IMG/VR virus record: IMGVR_UViG_3300046817_000149
Coordinates: 1-39,436 of that record
From: a virus
Reading direction: 5' to 3' (one strand)
DNA length: 39,436 nt
Within the stretch, counting starts at the first letter, position 1. The number at the start of each line of letters is the position of its first letter. Both the position numbers and the translations under genes were made by a program. The notes beneath the pieces are model-generated. The model did not search any database. It had not been told where the DNA came from and was given only the letters and a program-made list of their open reading frames with translations. Of the stretch, positions 74-31,922 are shown piece by piece.

Positions 74-168
74 TGTATACTAAACTCTAGCGCACAGTGC
101 AAATCTACCATGTATACTAAGTACCAGAAGAAATACGATTTGACTTTTCAAAGTTTAAGAGTATACTA
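74..168 (+). promoter_or_regulatory. Three TATACTA-type sites ahead of the HTH gene
   Basis: The sequence TGTATACTA occurs at 74-82 and 111-119, and AGTATACTA at 160-168. The core GTATAC is a palindrome. Only the third copy has a matching -35 box, so the first two may be operator sites rather than -10 boxes. The segment 76-90 matches 13 of 15 bases with the segment downstream of the -10 box of the leftward promoter at 35641-35669 read on the minus strand. The adjacent gene encodes an HTH protein, so autoregulation is a reasonable inference. No protein was tested here. Confidence 0.45.
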
Positions 169-174
169 GTCACT
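140..174 (+). promoter_or_regulatory. Sigma70-type promoter, leaderless, for the left arm
   Basis: TTGACT at 140-145 and TATACT at 162-167 are separated by 16 bp. Seven bases separate the -10 box from the ATG at 175, which puts the expected transcription start at or within a base of the A of that ATG. There is no Shine-Dalgarno sequence before 175. Leaderless mRNAs are common in actinobacteria, so this is read as a leaderless promoter. It is the only good promoter found before the terminase genes. Confidence 0.7.
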
Positions 175-3885: not shown

Positions 3886-5430
3886 ATGTCCAAGAAGGAC
3901 ATTATCGGATTTCTGGCAAAGAGCTTGAGCCAACAGGCTAAAACCCCTAACATGCACGCTTACATTCCGCATTCAAAACAGAGTGCGTTTCACAAGAGCG
4001 ACGCAAAGGGACGACTCTACATTGGTGGAAACCGATCAGGCAAATCTGTCGGGGGTGTTGTCGAGGATTTGTGGTGGGCTACAGGACGCCATCCTTATCT
4101 TAAGACTCCCGAATTGCCCGTCAACGGACGAATTATCGGCGTTGACTTCATTAACGGGATTCAAGGTATCCTACTGCCAATCTTCAAACGATGGATTGTG
4201 CCTAGTGACCTTATCAACGGGTCCTGGGAAGACTCTTGGCACAATCTCGAAAGAACGCTCACATTAGCTAATGGTTCTGTGTTGGATTTCAAATCTAACG
4301 ACCAGGACTTGGAAAAGCACGCAGGTACCTCTCGAAACTTCATTCACTTCGATGAGGAACCTCCGCGTGCTTACTTCATTGAGAATTTGCTTCGTCTAGT
4401 TGACGTAGGCGGGTCCTGGTGGATTACCATGACTCCTGTCATGGGCATGACTTGGATTTATTCCCAGCTGTACGAGAAGTGGAAAAAGAGTTCAGTCGAT
4501 AATTTCGATGTCATTGAAGTCGATATGGCAGATAATCCGTACCTGTCGGAAGCTGAAAAGGCCGCGATTCTAGGATTCCTAAATGCTGATGAACGGTCGA
4601 AGCGAGAGCACGGCAATTTCATTCCAAGGGGTGGATTGGTATACCCCGATTTTGAGGAAACAGTTCATACAACAATTCGGAACTGGAAGCCACCTAAAGA
4701 TTGGCTCGTGTATCAGTCTACAGATCATGGGTACAATAATCCTGCCGCCCATTTGTGGCACGCCGTATCTCCTGACGGCTTGACTGTCGTCACGTTTAAT
4801 GAGATGTATGGTAGCGAGAGGATCGTAAAAGAATGGGCGTCTATGATCCTCCAATGGGAATCCGAGAACAGTATCAATATCTTTTTGCGGACTGGGGACC
4901 CGGCTATGAAACAGCGCCAAGCGGTTACCGGAACAAGTATAGCCTCAGAGTATGCGGATTGTGGGATCCATTTCAGTCTGGATTCTGTTCCAAGAGATGT
5001 TTCTGTGGGGGTCAACCGCGTTACGCAGTACCTACAAATCAATCCGAATACTAAGCAACCATTCTGGCAAATTGATGGAGAACGGTGCCCTAACCTGACC
5101 AGAGAAATGCTCCAGCTACAATGGGCATACTATGAGTCGGCTAAATTAGCAGACTCTAATAATAGGCAAGAGAAGATCAAAAAGAAGGATGACCACGCTC
5201 CGGATTCGGCCCGCTACTTCTTCACATTCCTCCCAGACCTGGGAGCGATGGCTGAGACGCAAATTGATCCGATTATGGAAGCACTTGGAAACGGAGGCAT
5301 ACAGGCCGGAACTATCTGGGAGTTTATTGCCAGAGCAAAAGGTCCAGAAAGTTCGTTCGGGCCGACGAGTACTGAATGGATGACTTCACAGGGATTCTCT
5401 GTGACTGATGATTGGGACGATGACTACTAA
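3886..5430 (+). CDS. terL: Terminase large subunit
   Basis: A 514-aa ATPase-nuclease that drives DNA into the prohead. The Walker A-like motif GGNRSGKS is at residues 47-54 and the Walker B/catalytic stretch FIHFDEEPP near 154-160. The C-terminal RNase H-like nuclease has candidate acidic residues in STDHGY, RTGDPA and DDHAPDSARYF. I chose the ATG at 3886 because GGAG lies seven bases before it. An in-frame ATG at 3847 would add 13 residues but lacks a ribosome binding site and overlaps the upstream gene. The length fits the family. The stop (TAATG) overlaps the next start. Confidence 0.93.
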   Translation: MSKKDIIGFLAKSLSQQAKTPNMHAYIPHSKQSAFHKSDAKGRLYIGGNRSGKSVGGVVEDLWWATGRHPYLKTPELPVNGRIIGVDFINGIQGILLPIFKRWIVPSDLINGSWEDSWHNLERTLTLANGSVLDFKSNDQDLEKHAGTSRNFIHFDEEPPRAYFIENLLRLVDVGGSWWITMTPVMGMTWIYSQLYEKWKKSSVDNFDVIEVDMADNPYLSEAEKAAILGFLNADERSKREHGNFIPRGGLVYPDFEETVHTTIRNWKPPKDWLVYQSTDHGYNNPAAHLWHAVSPDGLTVVTFNEMYGSERIVKEWASMILQWESENSINIFLRTGDPAMKQRQAVTGTSIASEYADCGIHFSLDSVPRDVSVGVNRVTQYLQINPNTKQPFWQIDGERCPNLTREMLQLQWAYYESAKLADSNNRQEKIKKKDDHAPDSARYFFTFLPDLGAMAETQIDPIMEALGNGGIQAGTIWEFIARAKGPESSFGPTSTEWMTSQGFSVTDDWDDDY

Positions 5431-10692: not shown

Positions 10693-12153
10693 ATGTCTGC
10701 GCCTCTTTCATTGCGGGACAAGCAATTTGCTTTTCTCGTCGGTCAGTACGGACCTGGTTTGTCTTATGCTGATATGCTTAGTAAATACCTAGGCGGCGGG
10801 AAGTCGCTTTCTGATCTGGAATACGCTGCTTACCTTGGTGACTCCAAGCTGTCATTAGCTGACAATATGAACACTGTGATAGCTGGTAGCGGGTCCCTGT
10901 CGGATAAGATGTACGCAGATTCGTCAGGTGGTATTGTCACTAATATCACCAATCTAATTAATAATCCATATCCTGCTAGTTTGTCAAGTTGGACATATGC
11001 AGGTACGGCGGGTAATTGGGTTGTTACTTACGCTAGTAGCGAAATTAGTGCGGATAGGCAGGCTGCTGCTCCGGCAAATATAGCTGTCTCTATGGCTGTA
11101 ACGGGGTTGTTAGTTGCGAATCCTGTACTTAAAGTTGGAGTTAACTATCAACGTTCGGTAGAAGTATGGGTAGATGCTCCGGCTACAGTTGTGACTCTAG
11201 TACCTAACGGATACGCAGCTGGGCAAGCTCTGCCTGCGAACCAGTGGACTAGAGTATCTCAACAGTTTACCGGTAACGGGGTTGCATCGTACGTAACTGC
11301 GATAGCTATAAATATCCCAGGAGTTGGCACCGGTGTCCATGTAAAGTTCCGTAAAGCTATGTTGTGTGAGAACCCGACTGGTAAAGAGCTAGCTTATACG
11401 GACGGTAACTCACCTGGATGGGTTTGGGATGGTGCGGTTAACAATAGTACTTCTCATGGTCCACCTATCTACGTATCAGATAATCCTGTGTACGCTGGAC
11501 CAACTCCGCTTCATGCATTCTGGGCCGGTAATCCAGATATGGGTGCTATTGCCGATGGTACGGCTATTGCGTCGTGGCTCAATTACGGTGGTGGTTCACT
11601 AACAAATACTGGTGGCGCAGCTCAACCTACATATAAGAAGTCTGACCTTACTCTTAATGGTAAGCCTTCTCTGGTGTTTAATGGTACTGCTAATTACCTA
11701 AGTGTTGATGTTACTGATGCTGCACAGACTTACTATGCTGTTGCTATCTCGTCCGGTAACACTTGGGGACGGGGAGTACTTGGTACTGGAGGTTCCGTTG
11801 CTGCGACAGATGGTGTAGGTATCAGATCATCTAATGGTAACTGGTTCACATGTGCTGGTACTGTTCTTGACTCCCTTATCGTGTCTTCTGCGGTTGCTCC
11901 TACTTTGACGGTAGCTAAGTTTGCCGGTGCTGCTTCTGAGATACAGGTGAATAGCGCAGCCGCAGTCGTCGGTGCTGCCGGTGCAGAAGTACTTAGCTAT
12001 TTCAAGGTTGGTTGTATGGGCCTAGTTGGAGCTAATGCTTCATTCTGGACTGGTTCGGTAGCTTTTGCAGCTATCTACTCTAGTGATCCCAGGTTGGACT
12101 CTAAATGGCCCGCTATTCTAGCTTTTGCTCGTTCTTGTGGAGTTCCAGTCTAG
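10693..12153 (+). CDS. Lectin-like surface protein (head fibre or decoration)
   Basis: A 486-aa protein. Residues ~1-80 are repetitive and helical, with LRDKQFAFLVGQYG and SLSDLEYAAYLGDSK, SLSDKMYAD repeats, and probably anchor it. Residues ~85-230 look like a carbohydrate-binding jelly roll (YPASLSSWTY through VHVKFRKAMLCENPTGKEL). Residues ~265-485 have the concanavalin/LamG pattern (HAFWAGN, KPSLVFNGTANYLSV, SFWTGSVAFAAIYSS). A GGAGAG precedes the ATG. Codon third positions are richer in A/T than in the capsid gene, hinting at separate acquisition. The position next to the coat gene suggests capsid decoration, but a tail-associated adhesin is possible. Confidence 0.62.
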   Translation: MSAPLSLRDKQFAFLVGQYGPGLSYADMLSKYLGGGKSLSDLEYAAYLGDSKLSLADNMNTVIAGSGSLSDKMYADSSGGIVTNITNLINNPYPASLSSWTYAGTAGNWVVTYASSEISADRQAAAPANIAVSMAVTGLLVANPVLKVGVNYQRSVEVWVDAPATVVTLVPNGYAAGQALPANQWTRVSQQFTGNGVASYVTAIAINIPGVGTGVHVKFRKAMLCENPTGKELAYTDGNSPGWVWDGAVNNSTSHGPPIYVSDNPVYAGPTPLHAFWAGNPDMGAIADGTAIASWLNYGGGSLTNTGGAAQPTYKKSDLTLNGKPSLVFNGTANYLSVDVTDAAQTYYAVAISSGNTWGRGVLGTGGSVAATDGVGIRSSNGNWFTCAGTVLDSLIVSSAVAPTLTVAKFAGAASEIQVNSAAAVVGAAGAEVLSYFKVGCMGLVGANASFWTGSVAFAAIYSSDPRLDSKWPAILAFARSCGVPV

Positions 12154-21300: not shown

Positions 21301-22714
21301 AAAGACGGTTAACTGGGGGAAGAGTAACACTCCAGTTGCGAGATTCATGAATCAGGTTTTCGATCCAATGACTCGGGCCTGGAAGACATTTGCTACTAGT
21401 CTTCGGCCAGGTCACCATTTGGCGAATGCTTCTGGCGACTCAATTACTAATTTCGTACACGGGGTAAACCCTACTGATTATCTGCGTGGTAATCGTGCGC
21501 TTCGGTCTATTGGTATGGTTGACCGACAGCCGTACGAAATTATGGAACAGATCGCTATGGGAAAGCCCGTTGATGATATGCTTCGGGCTGGAAAAAATGC
21601 GACACCAGAGGCTAGGGCAAAAACCGCAGCTATGGCGAGCGAGCATAGCTTCACCATGACTTTGAAGGGTGGGAAAAAGGTATCGTATACTAATGGCCAA
21701 TTCGGTGATGGCCTGTATAGGAACGGTGCGATTTCTCATTTCCGTCAGCTAGAAGATATCGAAGCTGGGAACAAGATCGTGGAGAACAGATTCAACCGAC
21801 AGGCCGGTAGTGCGATTGACCAGGGCCTGGAACGGGTGATGAATTCTCGGTACGGTCAACTGATGGAAAAGTCTGGTGAATGGAACGCTAATCTCCAACG
21901 TGGTGCTCAGATTGCTAAGCATTTGCGTGATCCCAAATTCACCAAGAAGTTCGCTACAGAAGATGATGCCTGGGAAGCTGCGGTAGAGAGTTCTCTTAGA
22001 GCGCATCCGGATGCAGGCGGCCTGTCGGCTTTCGAGAAGAAATGGGGACGGCGAGTAATGCCGTTCTACTCGTACACCAGGCAGATTATGCCGTGGGTTT
22101 TAACAAACATGATGGCCCATCCTGGGCGTATGGTTGCCATTCCGAAAGCTCAGTATAACATGCAGGTGCTTTTTAATCAGGACCCGAAGCAAATCGGTGC
22201 ACCGTTTACTGGATACGAGCATCTTCCGTCCTGGGCCAGAGCAATTATGGGTGGAAATATCATGGGACCAGAGATGGACCCAACTAAGACGAATATCGGA
22301 TTCTCCCTGTCGTCTCCTCTGGATACTTTTGCAGAGTTCACCAATACACCGGCTGGATTACCTAATGGTGGATTGGGCGGATCGCTTAGCAAAGCAACTA
22401 TCGGTATGCTAAATCCGCTACTTACTGCTCCAGGTAGACTTACTGATCCGTCTAAGGATCAGTCGGAAGAGATAGACAAAACTCTCCCCGGTCTGACGAC
22501 AGTGTCGGGTATTACAGGACGTTCTCCATCGGGAACTGTTGCAAATATCCTGAGCGGAAAGCCTCAACTTGATCCTACTAGGTCGTATCAGCAGGGTCAG
22601 CGTACGCAATTCTTGAATGAAGCACTGTTGAACTTCTTTACTGGTTTGCGGATTCAGGATTTCAGCGACTATTCGTCAGCCGCACCTGGCGGAATAGTTG
22701 GGAGTAGGATGTGA
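18317..22714 (+). CDS. Giant internal virion protein (1465 aa)
   Basis: The largest product of the window. A GGAG lies six bases before the ATG. The first ~130 residues are followed by a long Ala/Thr/Pro-rich region (to ~430), an alpha-helical centre (Ala/Gln-rich, ~430-760), and a more compact C-terminal half. The segment SLRPGHHLANASGDSITNF (about residues 1032-1050) resembles a motif I associate with large polyvalent phage proteins, and FYSYTRQIMPWVLTNMMAHP (about 1258-1277) is a conserved-looking hydrophobic patch. Length and position before the lysin parallel T7 gp15/gp16-type ejection proteins. It has no recognised catalytic site. Confidence 0.68.
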   Translation: MGQRYSVKAPVSLTHPKPIVSKPVDLTPVFDRNLPLVNMAPPENGEDPVGWFAGLIDNLQRGAYAVKSAIQSTYDEDPTGNLLTAAAKGWNLENRVTGAGELETAVQKAHDTGAYDKLSDIQKMAVDFVGSNFFKATGGMVYDTATDPLSYIPGKVIAAPVTGAAKVISRAGMGAKSVAKGTATLTEEAARAKGLGLDRVLVGEEVGPKTQSAAPAATPMRGDVGGALFPEPQLGPGKVRPEPPRSASGAIIVEPTVGGPHTPTFDPTTRGAGSSFVNDAGQPVFAPETIPTGTVSGLTDAKNLSNAHAARLGQPVKPPGPTDFLPKAGEGIPFPEMLDSRLKRAKLANPIEPKPASPVTDTSVVTAATHDVTEAAKAIEDVKQAVDPVVTQSDIAANEAVNVAGDVRATDSAKTNVGIPDGPYPTEAWNTVANNNKMAERTATYVKTAREYADRNAPLFSEVNTREAARKIQLQKTLANDKQSMLQSGTAPVVPYKAAGEKIPKKYFLHMADIMNVVPDTVYRSFYKIKGQTAPSSWMGAAAAAVHHSNLGMTGPELTNLVEQAFKDYHKLRGGKPSSSMAAQAAKALTKPEALSKLHAAVQANEQFIAQADHAAGKTVGESAAANLKAVLDDPGSSMSKELVAVADLHGSIARQIEAAGGLPGEASAATQTAREAASSLVDDLDVAAARATLRTVKAAQRGDEVAVRRIGLEQYRRDANAAKQISERDASAFASNAARNINPRETFAPPANIIADLADQETENFLNYFQRVFRGTAIKLQGGAGQGKFFGVRRRTASTFGALHGEYNHALGKAEKDFGRAATDNMFAQIWNGAKREDLSQADKMIFDDLYPLMKGVIDPAGGFLDNAVLRSGLTIEGFNASTKTRGIPWLELKEEWPGQPLAEAFQNQIKDFKIEDPLDFLSKFHSVGADAAVLNAMARAAESKGSLTFREGYSRIARSKDFKEAPISHYIDNEMWIPNQIVEELRLANRDMLKTVNWGKSNTPVARFMNQVFDPMTRAWKTFATSLRPGHHLANASGDSITNFVHGVNPTDYLRGNRALRSIGMVDRQPYEIMEQIAMGKPVDDMLRAGKNATPEARAKTAAMASEHSFTMTLKGGKKVSYTNGQFGDGLYRNGAISHFRQLEDIEAGNKIVENRFNRQAGSAIDQGLERVMNSRYGQLMEKSGEWNANLQRGAQIAKHLRDPKFTKKFATEDDAWEAAVESSLRAHPDAGGLSAFEKKWGRRVMPFYSYTRQIMPWVLTNMMAHPGRMVAIPKAQYNMQVLFNQDPKQIGAPFTGYEHLPSWARAIMGGNIMGPEMDPTKTNIGFSLSSPLDTFAEFTNTPAGLPNGGLGGSLSKATIGMLNPLLTAPGRLTDPSKDQSEEIDKTLPGLTTVSGITGRSPSGTVANILSGKPQLDPTRSYQQGQRTQFLNEALLNFFTGLRIQDFSDYSSAAPGGIVGSRM

Positions 22715-23889
22715 CCACTCCACTGCTTTTAGAGTCCGATGATACAGACATGCTTTGGAAGAAACTTGATGCCAAAAAGGCAGAGAATGACGCCAAGCAA
22801 AAAGCCAGCGACACTATCGTACCGGACGCCGACAGCCTGGTTTACGACAGCTATTACGATCGACTGAAAAGTATTCAGGATCGCAGTACAAGTGCGACTC
22901 AGGGTGCGATTGCTGCCGATGCTACAAAGAAGCAGTACGAAGCTGCGGTAAAAGCTGCCGAGTTACAAAGGCAGCAGCAGAAAGCTTTGCAAGATGCATA
23001 CAACGGCATGAATAGTATTGCCGGCGGTGGGCAATACGGTCAGCCGTATGGAGCCTCCGGTGGTGGTGCTGGTTGGGGAGGCGGTGGAGCACAGGGCGTA
23101 GCAAATGTTTTGCGGGCCGCAGGTTTTCCTGAATCTGCTGTGCCTACCATGATGGCAATTGCTATGGCCGAATCCTCATGGAATCCGGGGGCCACGCATA
23201 AGAACTCAAACGGTAGTACTGACAACGGCTTGTTCCAAATCAACACAATTCATAAAGGTAACAGCTGGTACCCAAGTAATCCGATGGACCCGTTGCAATC
23301 TGCACAGGCGGCATATGCATTGTGGAAAGGTGCGGGCGGCTCATATCGGGACTGGACTGTATATAACTCTGGTGCGTATAAGAAATTCCTACAGGCCGCT
23401 CCACCTATCCAACCATATATAGCAGCTACTAGTGCCGGCCTCACATATGCTCAGGTAGGCCAGGCCAAGAATTATTCTGGTGTCCCACTGTCGTCTGCCC
23501 GACAGCAGGTATTGAGTATCAGCCGACAGGTATTGAACATCCCATATGTATGGGGTGGAAACTCCCTGCAAACCGGTGTCGACTGTTCTGGTTTGGTTCA
23601 GCAGGTATATTCCCGAGTCGGAGTTTCTATGCCCCGACAGGCAAGAGCACAGGCAACTACCGGTGTTCGTGTCGGTTCTTGGCAGCAGCTACAGCCTGGC
23701 GATTTGGTTGCGTTCCAGTGGGCCGGAGGGTATGCAGGTCCTAACGTCGTGTCGCATATCTCTATCTACATTGGAAATGGTCAGATCATCGAAGCAGCTG
23801 GTGGTTCTCGGGGAGATATCAGGTCACTGGGTAATTCGTCTCAGGACCGTGGTGCAATCTACATCCATACTAGATTCCCGGGAGAATGA
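22711..23889 (+). CDS. Virion lysin: SLT transglycosylase + NlpC/P60 peptidase
   Basis: A 392-aa protein with two catalytic domains. Residues ~128-228 form a lysozyme-like SLT domain with the probable catalytic Glu154 in AMAESSWNPG and an NGLFQIN motif. Residues ~260-392 form an NlpC/P60 domain with Cys292 in DCSGLVQ and His349 in SHISIYIG. The first ~125 residues are charged helices and a Gly-rich linker. The two activities would cut glycan and peptide bonds during DNA entry. It starts with GTG overlapping the previous stop (GTGA). A lysis role is possible, but its place within the virion block favours a particle-borne enzyme. Confidence 0.87.
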   Translation: MTTPLLLESDDTDMLWKKLDAKKAENDAKQKASDTIVPDADSLVYDSYYDRLKSIQDRSTSATQGAIAADATKKQYEAAVKAAELQRQQQKALQDAYNGMNSIAGGGQYGQPYGASGGGAGWGGGGAQGVANVLRAAGFPESAVPTMMAIAMAESSWNPGATHKNSNGSTDNGLFQINTIHKGNSWYPSNPMDPLQSAQAAYALWKGAGGSYRDWTVYNSGAYKKFLQAAPPIQPYIAATSAGLTYAQVGQAKNYSGVPLSSARQQVLSISRQVLNIPYVWGGNSLQTGVDCSGLVQQVYSRVGVSMPRQARAQATTGVRVGSWQQLQPGDLVAFQWAGGYAGPNVVSHISIYIGNGQIIEAAGGSRGDIRSLGNSSQDRGAIYIHTRFPGE

Positions 23890-29250: not shown

Positions 29251-29689
29251 TAGTGCGCGTCCTCACAAACAGCTCATATCCCGGTGGCAGGATTTCATCA
29301 GGTGGCGGTACAAACCCAAACCGTTTAAGCGCATTCGGCTCAACGACAGGCGGGTAGTACCGTTCGCAACAATTCCAGCAGTACCAACCGACCCTAGGTT
29401 TCGTATGCCACCCCTGTCGTGAGTGGCGGAACCAGTAATAGAACCATTCAAAACACATGCTACATTTCTGCATACGGTTCTGATACTTGTCACACTTACT
29501 GCACTTGGGCGGAGATACCCATGCTAGTTCAGCCTGTATGAGAAGCTTGTAGTCTGGATATCCCCACCGTTTGCAGTGACAAAGTTGATCGTGAATCCAT
29601 AAATCTTTAGGTATACTAGTCTTGACTCCCTTGAAATACGCATATAACTGATCGACTTGTTCTTCTTGATTATACTTACGACGTGCCAT
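29225..29689 (-). CDS. Cysteine-rich protein, unknown
   Basis: A 154-aa protein with up to nine Cys, several in CxxC pairs: CHC near 37-39, CSKC near 63-66, CSMC near 76-79, and CWNCC near 104-108, so one or two zinc sites are likely. The N-terminus is basic and helical (RRKYNQEEQVDQLYAYFKG). AAGAGG precedes the ATG. It lies between the beta-helix ORF and the primase-helicase. The zinc binding is inferred from spacing; the role is unknown. Confidence 0.65.
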   Translation of the reverse strand: MARRKYNQEEQVDQLYAYFKGVKTSIPKDLWIHDQLCHCKRWGYPDYKLLIQAELAWVSPPKCSKCDKYQNRMQKCSMCFEWFYYWFRHSRQGWHTKPRVGWYCWNCCERYYPPVVEPNALKRFGFVPPPDEILPPGYELFVRTRTSGNRGTTT

Positions 29690-29697
29690 CTTACCTC

Positions 29698-30759
29698 TTA
29701 CGCTACTTGTAGGACTGTGTTATCTGAGGCTAGGAGATTTCCGCCTGCTCGTCGGTATCGGATTTGTCGGGGATCGCCGCCAGCGTATAGCCGTGCTCCT
29801 TTAATGTCGAGAACACCGCCACTTTGATAGACGTCTGGATCGCCTTGACCGTTTGCTCGCTTAAAACGACAGTCGGTGAGAGATGCATCCCCTCCAGAGA
29901 CCATAAGTGTCCCCTGTTCACCTCTCCCTGGCACTGCAAAGTTAAAGCTGCACCCGTAGAAACTATATCCACCACCAGTAATTCTGGCAACTGCACCCGC
30001 GCTAGGGGCTCCGGCATTTCGACCTTCCATAACCATACCGTTAATGACTACTCCATTTCTGTCGGCTGGACCTTCACACAAAAGAGCCCGAGCAGGAGAG
30101 CCTGTGATATACAGTGGACCTAGGTAAGACTTTTCGAGCCACGACAGGATAAGCGCAGTCCTAGATGGGTCGGTCATACTAGTACCGAAATCTAGTTTAC
30201 CCCCATCAGTCCAAAGCTGACAATCTGAGCCTTTAATGCGGTAGCTGAAAGGTCCCTTGGTGTTATTGGTGTAGCTATCCCCGCTAATCCGAAGACCGAG
30301 ACAGGGTCCGTCGATGACGTGCCAGAAACCGTCAAACGAGCACCCAGTGATTCCAGCATAGTTGATTTGATTCGGATTATCGTGAGTGCCAATAAGTGGG
30401 GCGCTTGATTGAGACTCAAATCCAATGTTGTAGAATCCCCAGCCTTTGTTACCTGAGTAATTATTACCGTTGTCGGGGATTCGGAAGATGCCTTTAGGAC
30501 CTCCCTTAAAGTATACCGGCCAGGACTTGGCGAATTCATTCTGTGGTCCACCAAATCCTTCAAGGACTGTGCCGGCTTTAAGTTCGATTGGGTTATCCCC
30601 TACGTCAATTACAGTACCAGGCAAGGGGACAATAGCCTGGCTGGTAGTGGCGATTGCATTACGCAACTTGTCAGCAGATGTAGCGCCAGAAAACTCATCG
30701 AGGTATTGATACCCTCTGCCGGTAACCGTCACTGGAGGAATCGGTTCCGGCGTTATGGG
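29698..30759 (-). CDS. Beta-helix domain, probably -1 frameshift extension of the M15 protein
   Basis: A 353-residue segment with right-handed beta-helix character: DEFSGATSADKLRNAIATT then repeated short strands with GF.GP, GITGCSFDGFWHV and SLTDCRFKRANGQG, as in tailspikes and pectate-lyase-like proteins. It has no credible start of its own: no ATG, and a GTG at 30732 has no ribosome binding site. Its frame is -1 relative to the M15 gene, and the stretch before GTG reads as a Pro-rich linker (PITPEPIPPVTVTG). With the frameshift, a ~613-aa peptidase-linker-beta-helix protein is made. Without it, the ORF may be silent or start weakly at 30732. Confidence 0.65.
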   Translation of the reverse strand, partial: PITPEPIPPVTVTGRGYQYLDEFSGATSADKLRNAIATTSQAIVPLPGTVIDVGDNPIELKAGTVLEGFGGPQNEFAKSWPVYFKGGPKGIFRIPDNGNNYSGNKGWGFYNIGFESQSSAPLIGTHDNPNQINYAGITGCSFDGFWHVIDGPCLGLRISGDSYTNNTKGPFSYRIKGSDCQLWTDGGKLDFGTSMTDPSRTALILSWLEKSYLGPLYITGSPARALLCEGPADRNGVVINGMVMEGRNAGAPSAGAVARITGGGYSFYGCSFNFAVPGRGEQGTLMVSGGDASLTDCRFKRANGQGDPDVYQSGGVLDIKGARLYAGGDPRQIRYRRAGGNLLASDNTVLQVA

Positions 30760-30765
30760 TTTGGG
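30718..30765 (-). promoter_or_regulatory. Programmed -1 frameshift signal
   Basis: The slippery heptamer C-CCA-AAC lies at 30765-30759 in the exact X-XXY-YYZ phase of the M15 reading frame. A seven-base spacer (30758-30752) holds the M15 stop codon TAA. A stem follows: GCCGGAACCG (30751-30742) pairs with CGGTTACCGGC (30728-30718), ten base pairs with one bulged A and a 13-base loop. All three elements are at the distances expected for a -1 frameshift site, and the -1 frame opens directly into the beta-helix ORF. Confidence 0.72.
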
Positions 30766-31538
30766 CGAGCGTTTACCTCGTCAATACCCCATACGGTGCC
30801 TTGATGAACGGCATCTTTGAATTGCTGAAAAGTAGCAGCGCCTCCTAGCATTTCTGCAAGCAAACCTCGTACTGCTTCTCGAATGATTACCGGATCAACA
30901 CTGTTGATATCTTCCAATGCCCATTCGACACCATCGTGGACAATTTGCTTGAGTTGCTGCTCTGAATATGGCAAGTCATCGCCTCCGTCTGATCCGAGAA
31001 TGCTCTTAGCCTTGGCGATATGCCCGGCTACATCATCTGGTGTCCAACAGTACCCATAGTGCATGGGATCGTATTTGCCGGTGTATCTGCCACCCCAATA
31101 CAGTCCCAAAGATTCCAAGTCAGCAACCATAGCCGGGGGCATATCGCATTGCCAAGTTGACGAGTAACCGTTGTAGGGAGCGTTAATGTCAACCGACAGG
31201 GCGGCGGAATGACCGGATGGATTGTTAGAACCTGAAATAGCCCGGTTTGAGTATCCCCAAGGACCCCAATTTTCACCGTTCTTGTTTGCCCATACCGTAT
31301 AGTTATGTTTCCTGTCGCAGATTTCAAATGCGAGGTTCCAGAGCGGGACAAGTTCTTTCCTCATCTGGACGACCATCTTCTGGCCGTTGGTTTTATTGGT
31401 GTAGCTTGTGCTTCCCATTAGCGAGGAGGGAACGCCACCAGGGTAGCAATAACCACCCCAAGCACTCCAATTACCATTAGCAGGCTTACCACTATTAGGA
31501 TTGTACGTTCCATATGCTGATTTCGGGTAATTTGTCAC
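30753..31538 (-). CDS. M15 peptidase endolysin
   Basis: A 261-aa protein. The catalytic domain has the M15 zinc triad: His110 and Asp117 in SGHSAALSVDIN and His160 in YDPMHYGYC. These enzymes cut peptide bonds of peptidoglycan stems or bridges. The C-terminal ~70 residues are helical and contain two related segments (HDGVEWALEDIN and HQGTVWGIDEVN) before the stop. It starts with GTG overlapping the previous stop (GTGA). It is encoded in the early-strand operon, not with the late genes. Frame -1 at its last codons continues into a beta-helix. Confidence 0.85.
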   Translation of the reverse strand: MTNYPKSAYGTYNPNSGKPANGNWSAWGGYCYPGGVPSSLMGSTSYTNKTNGQKMVVQMRKELVPLWNLAFEICDRKHNYTVWANKNGENWGPWGYSNRAISGSNNPSGHSAALSVDINAPYNGYSSTWQCDMPPAMVADLESLGLYWGGRYTGKYDPMHYGYCWTPDDVAGHIAKAKSILGSDGGDDLPYSEQQLKQIVHDGVEWALEDINSVDPVIIREAVRGLLAEMLGGAATFQQFKDAVHQGTVWGIDEVNARPNP

Positions 31539-31738
31539 ACTCCTATACCTCCATATCTCTCAAAGCCTTCATACAGCATCGTTCTCCTTAGTTTCGAAAG
31601 ATGAGGCCACCTAACTAACCAGTAGTCTTCAATCGAAAACCTGTCGCCGTAAATGGACATGTAAATCCTTGGCTCTGTAAAACCTCCCGTTCTTTCAACG
31701 ACAGTCTCGCCAATACGTCGATCTTCTTCGTAGCTCAA
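31535..31738 (-). CDS. Small protein before the endolysin, unknown
   Basis: I read a 67-aa protein from the TTG at 31738, which overlaps the TGA of the 27-aa gene (TTGA) and has GGAG eight bases upstream. An earlier TTG at 31792 lies within the upstream gene without a good site. The product is soluble and Arg/Tyr/Glu-rich (SYEEDRRIGETVVERTGGFT, RWPHLSKLRRTMLYEGFERY). No domain is recognised. Its stop overlaps the endolysin start. Confidence 0.55.
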   Translation of the reverse strand: MSYEEDRRIGETVVERTGGFTEPRIYMSIYGDRFSIEDYWLVRWPHLSKLRRTMLYEGFERYGGIGV

Positions 31739-31818
31739 TGGGTCAACTCCGCAATTATCATACCAATGATGAAGAGGCACAGGAACTGACAAATCTCAAC
31801 GATGGTCTCATTTTTCAT
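31735..31818 (-). CDS. 27-aa membrane peptide upstream of the endolysin
   Basis: A very small gene: ATG at 31818 with GGAA six bases upstream, 27 codons, and one hydrophobic segment (FLCLFIIGMIIAEL) after a polar start (MKNETIVEI). It directly precedes a TTGA-coupled gene and then the M15 endolysin. A single-pass peptide here could act as a pinholin, lysis regulator or membrane anchor. The evidence is limited to size, hydrophobicity and context. Confidence 0.55.
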   Translation of the reverse strand: MKNETIVEICQFLCLFIIGMIIAELTH

Positions 31819-31922
31819 ATGAGTTCCTAGTAGCTTATGTATACTAGCATGTGTGGGGTACCGCTCCCACTCCCGCAGCAGATCTGTCTAACCCTGTTAT
31901 GGGTTCTGCGGCCCCTCGTTTT
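31819..31922 (-). other. 104-bp gap with hairpin, leader of the lysis-like group
   Basis: This is one of the longest gaps in the leftward arm. It holds a compound stem: CCGCAG (31873-31878) with CTGCGG (31906-31911), and an inner AACCC/GGGTT hairpin at 31890-31905. A TATACTA match is at 31840-31846 on the plus strand. A weak extended -10 (TGCTAGTAT, read leftward) may start the lysis group, but no -35 box is present. No gene was found in it. Confidence 0.4.

Follow-up and report, generated by a model that had tools for sequence, protein, structure and literature searches.

The stretch of DNA analysed here, hereafter called the window, is the virus record IMGVR_UViG_3300046817_000149 at its full length of 39,436 bases. 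It harbours a WhiB-like gene, and its capsid proteins are 42-44% identical to those of Arthrobacter phage Jasmine and Microbacterium phage Shocker. On these grounds we placed the phage among the Jasmine-like actinobacterial phages. In that group the annotated endolysin is coded late on the plus strand, where the holin is also found in Jasmine. As a lysin with SLT_3 and NlpC/P60 domains occupies this usual late position in the window, the M15 peptidase coded on the minus strand among replication genes is likely to be a second wall hydrolase (Table 1). Directly after the major capsid gene, at the place where Jasmine has its tail spike, we observed a gene for a 486-aa protein (10693-12153, plus strand) without Pfam or PHROG match, which is possibly the tail spike or fibre of this phage.

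Table 1. Features of the M15 locus and the late lysin gene (window coordinates)
Feature	Position	Strand	Remarks
Late lysin, SLT_3 + NlpC/P60	22711-23889	+	Pfam domains; where Jasmine-like phages carry the annotated endolysin
Single-TM peptide MKNETIVEICQFLCLFIIGMIIAELTH	31735-31818	-	27 aa; upstream of the M15 gene
Small ORF	31535-31738	-	overlaps the stop of the TM-peptide gene (TTGA) and the M15 start; 31535-31792 in the ORF finder
M15 peptidase ORF	31538-30753	-	261 aa, intact; ends ...NARPNP-stop
SD-like GAGG	30776-30779	-	10 nt ahead of the heptamer; may stimulate the slip; lacking there in the relative
Slippery heptamer C_CCA_AAC	30765-30759	-	CC comes next; same sequence in the relative (CCCAAACCC)
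0-frame stop TAA	30755-30753	-	one codon past the heptamer; TAG in the relative
-1-frame ORF	29698-30780	-	open from 30780; ~340-aa Gly-rich, beta-helix-like arm
Pro-rich linker PITPEPIPP	30733-30759	-	-1 frame; protein only if ribosomes frameshift
GTG	30730-30732	-	sole plausible start of the downstream ORF; kept in the relative; rival reinitiation site
Local hairpin	30718-30751	-	10 bp, one bulged A; base 7 nt past the heptamer; not conserved
Alternative conserved fold	30685-30751	-	7-bp stem (30751-30745 with 30691-30685) around two small hairpins

The M15 product matches Pfam Peptidase_M15_4 (PF13539) above the cut-off (E 6.7e-8), and the predicted metal ligands of the HX6D...H motif (H110, D117 and H160) are invariant in eight homologues, making its assignment to the M15 family by profile and ligands sound. 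A weaker PHROG match is to endolysins (E 5e-4), and the AlphaFold model was too poor for use (pLDDT 65). Homologues coded in virus contigs L004-L011 are 40-74% identical to it. Those of L004-L006 and L011 run on in frame, several of them via Pro-rich linkers, to C-terminal regions that look like peptidoglycan (PG)-binding or LysM domains, and some of those in L004-L008 adjoin small TM ORFs. The original prediction called the protein an endolysin; its family is indeed endolysin-like, but given the separate lysin at 22711-23889 a role in lysis is only presumed.

Upstream of the M15 gene lies a peptide gene that ordinary length cut-offs miss. Its single-TM product, possibly holin-like, is nearly identical (MKNETIVEICQFMCLFIIGMIVAELTH) in a related contig described below, in which another small TM ORF precedes it. 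Both phages have in common a promoter-like segment (GGTACCCCACAC...CTAGTATACA) upstream of this operon. The motif CTAGTATAC is present three times in the window, at 31839-31847, 29611-29619 and 161-169 (-), for 0.2 expected occurrences, and twice in the relative; the copy at 31839 falls within the shared promoter-like segment.

At its 3' end the M15 0-frame reads CGC CCA AAC CCA TAA, and the heptamer CCCAAAC thus sits two codons before the stop (30765-30759), as initially described. In the -1 frame the last stop before the junction is a TGA at 30783-30781, which places the slip five codons past the opening and not seven, as first stated. Across the junction the -1 frame reads ...SPKPITPEPIPPVTVTGRGYQYLDEF..., leading via a Pro-rich linker to a protein of 340 residues, in agreement with the first description. 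The junction is devoid of long homopolymers, making transcriptional slippage unlikely.

We then considered how much weight the heptamer can bear. In this genome, in-frame X_XXY_YYZ heptamers are found at 0.30% of codon positions, and the chance of one occurring within the nine-codon overlap is p ~0.027, or 0.015 if Y is A or T. In both the window and the relative, the 0-frame CCCAAAC lies within this overlap with an open -1 frame. The predicted genes of the window contain four in-frame copies of the same heptamer, which is hence not avoided; because three of these copies are inside genes other than that of the M15 protein, the heptamer alone is weak evidence. In E. coli, AAC serves less well than AAG as the second codon, with A_AAA_AAG much above A_AAA_AAC, and it is C_CCA_AAG that is named as highly shift-prone, while G_GGA_AAC and A_AAA_AAC are used by halophilic archaeal viruses (PMC5009743). 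C_CCA_AAC is therefore a plausible slip site, not of the strongest bacterial type.

Whether the M15 protein or the downstream protein served as query, the searches led to the contig IMGVR_UViG_3300046737_000013, the only further one with the gene pair that we found among viral contigs, genome contigs and named phages searched by DNA comparison and tblastn. The M15 protein of this relative shares 82% identity over residues 1-204, beyond which it has a longer, unrelated C-terminal segment (L013, ~4842-5160). It nevertheless also ends with ...PNP-stop on CCCAAACCC, with TAG replacing TAA, which suggests that recombination has occurred immediately 5' of the slip site. In the -1 frame, the linker of the relative reads PVEPEIPPP, which is also Pro-rich and equal in length to PITPEPIPP. 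The downstream protein is 92% identical between the two phages, with dN and dS values of 0.060 and 0.554, respectively (dN/dS 0.11). As it is under purifying selection, we take the downstream ORF to be translated in both lineages. The comparison of the junction in a related phage that had been proposed thus shows that the slip site, the out-of-frame layout and the -1-frame linker are all kept, the site and the -1-frame coding being conserved across the junction in these two sequences.

These data also bear on a trivial explanation, namely that a sequencing or assembly indel, or the decay of a former in-frame fusion gene, has separated the two ORFs. The window is an IMG/VR virus contig, for which such errors might be considered, and a one-base error had been named as a possible refutation. 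However, the second contig has the same frame offset despite its diverged sequence and different upstream segment, and purifying selection acts on the downstream ORF, making an artefact of this kind extremely improbable. In L010 (4810-5619), a different M15 lysin precedes a separate ORF of 269 aa without -1-frame overlap; the pairing of M15 lysins with an extra downstream protein may be broader.

A more serious alternative is termination-reinitiation, in which ribosomes would stop at the TAA and restart at GTG 30732, 20 nt past the M15 stop, to yield a separate 344-aa arm and no fusion. The GTG is at an equal distance in both phages, the operon has coupled small genes (TTGA overlap), and several genes of this phage have weak SD sequences. 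There is also the cautionary precedent of the MS2 lysis gene, whose expression was first credited to frameshifting and was later reported to depend on termination at the coat gene, with reinitiation (both papers are cited in PMC5009743). If the arm started at the GTG, however, the linker upstream would be untranslated and therefore free to drift. From the heptamer region to the GTG there are 27 nt, which differ by 12 substitutions and no indel between the window and the relative, and the linker they encode is conserved as a -1-frame protein (p 0.0035 relative to an equal number of randomly placed substitutions). Over all 18 linker codons, the similarity score is above those of all 20,000 random-substitution trials, with 14/18 residues conserved in the -1 frame versus 7/17 in the other two frames. 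Pro-richness as high as that of the linker is found in 0.06% of nine-codon stretches of the window, whatever the frame.

The original prediction denied the downstream ORF both a start codon and a ribosome binding site. The first part must be revised, as the GTG exists; its SD sequence is both weak and distant (-3.5 kcal/mol with a spacing of 11 nt in the window, -2.9 with 10 nt in the relative), compared with -10.6 for the M15 start. The conservation of the linker as a -1-frame protein, together with the weakness of this SD, is our main argument for favouring a fusion over reinitiation, which leaves both the Pro-rich -1-frame protein upstream of the GTG and the conserved slippery CCCAAACCC unexplained. 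We therefore regard reinitiation without fusion as unlikely. A mixed situation, which we count within our preferred explanation, would see the frameshift fusion accompanied by an arm-only product from the GTG, hence three polypeptides, by analogy with endolysins whose internal start yields a binding-domain-only form beside the full-length one. The conservation of the GTG speaks for it, as does the frequency with which phages of Gram-positive bacteria have internal starts in their endolysin genes (PMC9430671, PMC4777826), and the weak SD against it; we deem this variant rather less probable still.

We also analysed potential stimulatory elements. The seven-base spacer (CCATAAC) and the 10-bp stem with one bulge initially described are present at 30751-30718, with GCCGGAACCG...CGGTTaCCGGC as the arms of the hairpin. 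The first 45 nt past the heptamer fold better than shuffled sequences (z -3.2, p 0.003), with a z value of -1.86 for a 71-nt piece. This stem did not withstand the comparison with the relative, in which 6/10 of its pairs break, and we rejected it as a conserved element. An H-type pseudoknot between the loop UCCUC and a downstream GAGGG was also rejected, on the reasoning that its 1-nt connector cannot span a 10-bp stem.

Another fold is common to both phages. In it, GCC(G/A)GA(A/G) pairs with an invariant UUCUGGC ~60 nt further on, and the stem base is exactly 7 nt past the heptamer in each of them. All 17/17 pairs are standard in both sequences; three one-sided changes keep the pairing, and two-sided changes number zero between these two sequences. 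The consensus energy has a p value of 0.005-0.01 for 75-80 nt, for two sequences and with several lengths tried, and in a scan of the 1-kb alignment by 34 sliding windows, no other scored as extremely for a consensus fold as the 75 nt adjacent to the slip site. The conserved stem is dominant in the relative (pair probability 0.56-1.0) and minor in the window (0.08-0.11), where the local hairpin prevails. The dominant fold thus has its stem base 7 nt past the heptamer in both phages, with different partner arms. With two sequences and several lengths tried, the conserved downstream stem is only a suggestive candidate for a frameshift stimulator. As for the SD-like GAGG, its anti-SD energy is -7.2 kcal/mol, and ~2.5% of background sites reach -5.9.

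The arm protein itself has no match in Pfam, PHROG or PDB sequences, and its AlphaFold model, obtained with two sequences, was too poor (pLDDT 45). The top Foldseek matches of this poor model include tailspikes and lyases at non-significant E values of 0.02 or worse. Hydrophobic periodicity gave a weak peak at 25-26 residues (z 2.0), and no similarity to the Jasmine tail spike was detected. The beta-helix initially assigned to the arm was thus not confirmed by family, sequence or structure searches (Foldseek E >=0.02), and it stays a plausible fold. The N-terminus of the arm (LDEFSGATSADKLRNAI...VPLPGTVIDVG...GTVLEGFGG) presumably resembles the starts of tailspikes and pectate lyases, which we take as a lead. 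The arm most likely binds or cuts wall glycans, because it is located behind a Pro-rich linker, where the M15 homologues carry PG-binding or LysM-like regions.

Whichever way the arm is translated, the pair might belong to the virion, as a tail-borne device directed at the wall or the receptor rather than as a lysis enzyme. The other lysin does sit at the usual late position, and the Jasmine tail spike contains a Beta_helix domain. Nevertheless, the M15 gene shares the minus strand with replication genes and directly follows the conserved single-TM peptide, and the L004-L008 homologues resemble lysis enzymes, with PG-binding or LysM-like ends and small TM ORFs beside some of them. A virion location is thus a minority view in our assessment, to be kept in mind.

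Altogether, a -1 frameshift yielding an M15-linker-arm fusion is the best reading of this locus, as originally proposed: the slip site, the frame offset and the linker are kept in the relative, and the dN/dS value points to purifying selection on the downstream ORF. It appears likely from the sequences that the M15 gene and the next ORF form a single recoding unit. The anatomy of the junction and the conservation of the slip site, the linker, the frame offset and the arm are observations; we infer the occurrence and the rate of the shift, the role of the RNA fold and the fold and function of the arm. Most ribosomes would stop at TAA 30753 and release the 261-aa M15 peptidase, and a minority would slip back by one base at C_CCA_AAC and continue in the -1 frame. 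Alternatively, the C_CCN_TAR sequence at the M15 stop provides a second possible P-site slip, of the Pro-tRNA on C_CCN, and the same protein would result. The predicted fusion, M15-PNP-ITPEPIPP-VTVTGRG-arm, would have ~613 residues. The slip would be promoted by the nearby stop, by the structure whose base is 7 nt past the heptamer and, for the phage of the window, by the GAGG 10 nt ahead of it. The arm, as a putative wall-glycan-binding (or -cutting) part, would tether a portion of the enzyme.

Optional C-terminal domains added by frameshifting are established for phage virion proteins, including the T3 capsid, proteins of Lactobacillus A2 and of Listeria A118, A500 and PSA, SPP1 gp17.1* and TpeX of the 936 lactococcal phages (PMC5009743, PMC6316719, PMC6669499). 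As in our model, the shift takes place at the end of the upstream gene and generates a minority product with an additional surface- or carbohydrate-binding domain. In SPP1 it occurs at a proline codon beside the stop, CCCUAA, but in the +1 direction (PMC6316719). There the added domain is carried by a capsid or tail protein, whereas here the carrier would be a peptidoglycan peptidase, with a -1 shift and a 340-aa arm. Two-polypeptide endolysins, such as CTP1L, LysIME-EF1, LysP7951 and that of phi2638A, are produced from in-frame internal starts (PMC4777826, PMC7098653, PMC9430671, PMC12203907). They similarly obtain from one gene region two lysin isoforms that differ in their cell-wall-binding part. 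However, both of their products share one frame and the shorter one consists of the binding domain, whereas here the short form is catalytic and the arm lies in another frame, setting it apart from the internal-start type. The lambda G/GT tail-assembly chaperone also relies on a -1 shift at an X_XXY_YYZ heptamer, again close to where a phage gene ends, but the protein is unrelated, and its genome place and role are different. Finally, the M15 lysins of contigs L004-L011 often have a Pro-rich linker and a C-terminal region as well, but that region is in frame or absent, with neither a frameshift nor a 340-aa arm.

Our literature search in open-licence papers found no report of frameshifting within an endolysin, in keeping with the initial remark that no established case is known; in TonyStarch, frameshifts are predicted near endolysin genes and not stated as being inside one. 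It is somewhat probable, with less assurance than for the fusion as such, that this is the first instance on an endolysin-type enzyme, with an arm dosed by a -1 frameshift at the conserved CCCAAACCC-stop in a fixed ratio of free to tethered forms. If true, this would join two themes, frameshift-added surface domains and two-part endolysins. It would imply that gene callers split such enzymes and overlook the arm, and that the balance between freely diffusing and tethered enzyme can be fixed by recoding.
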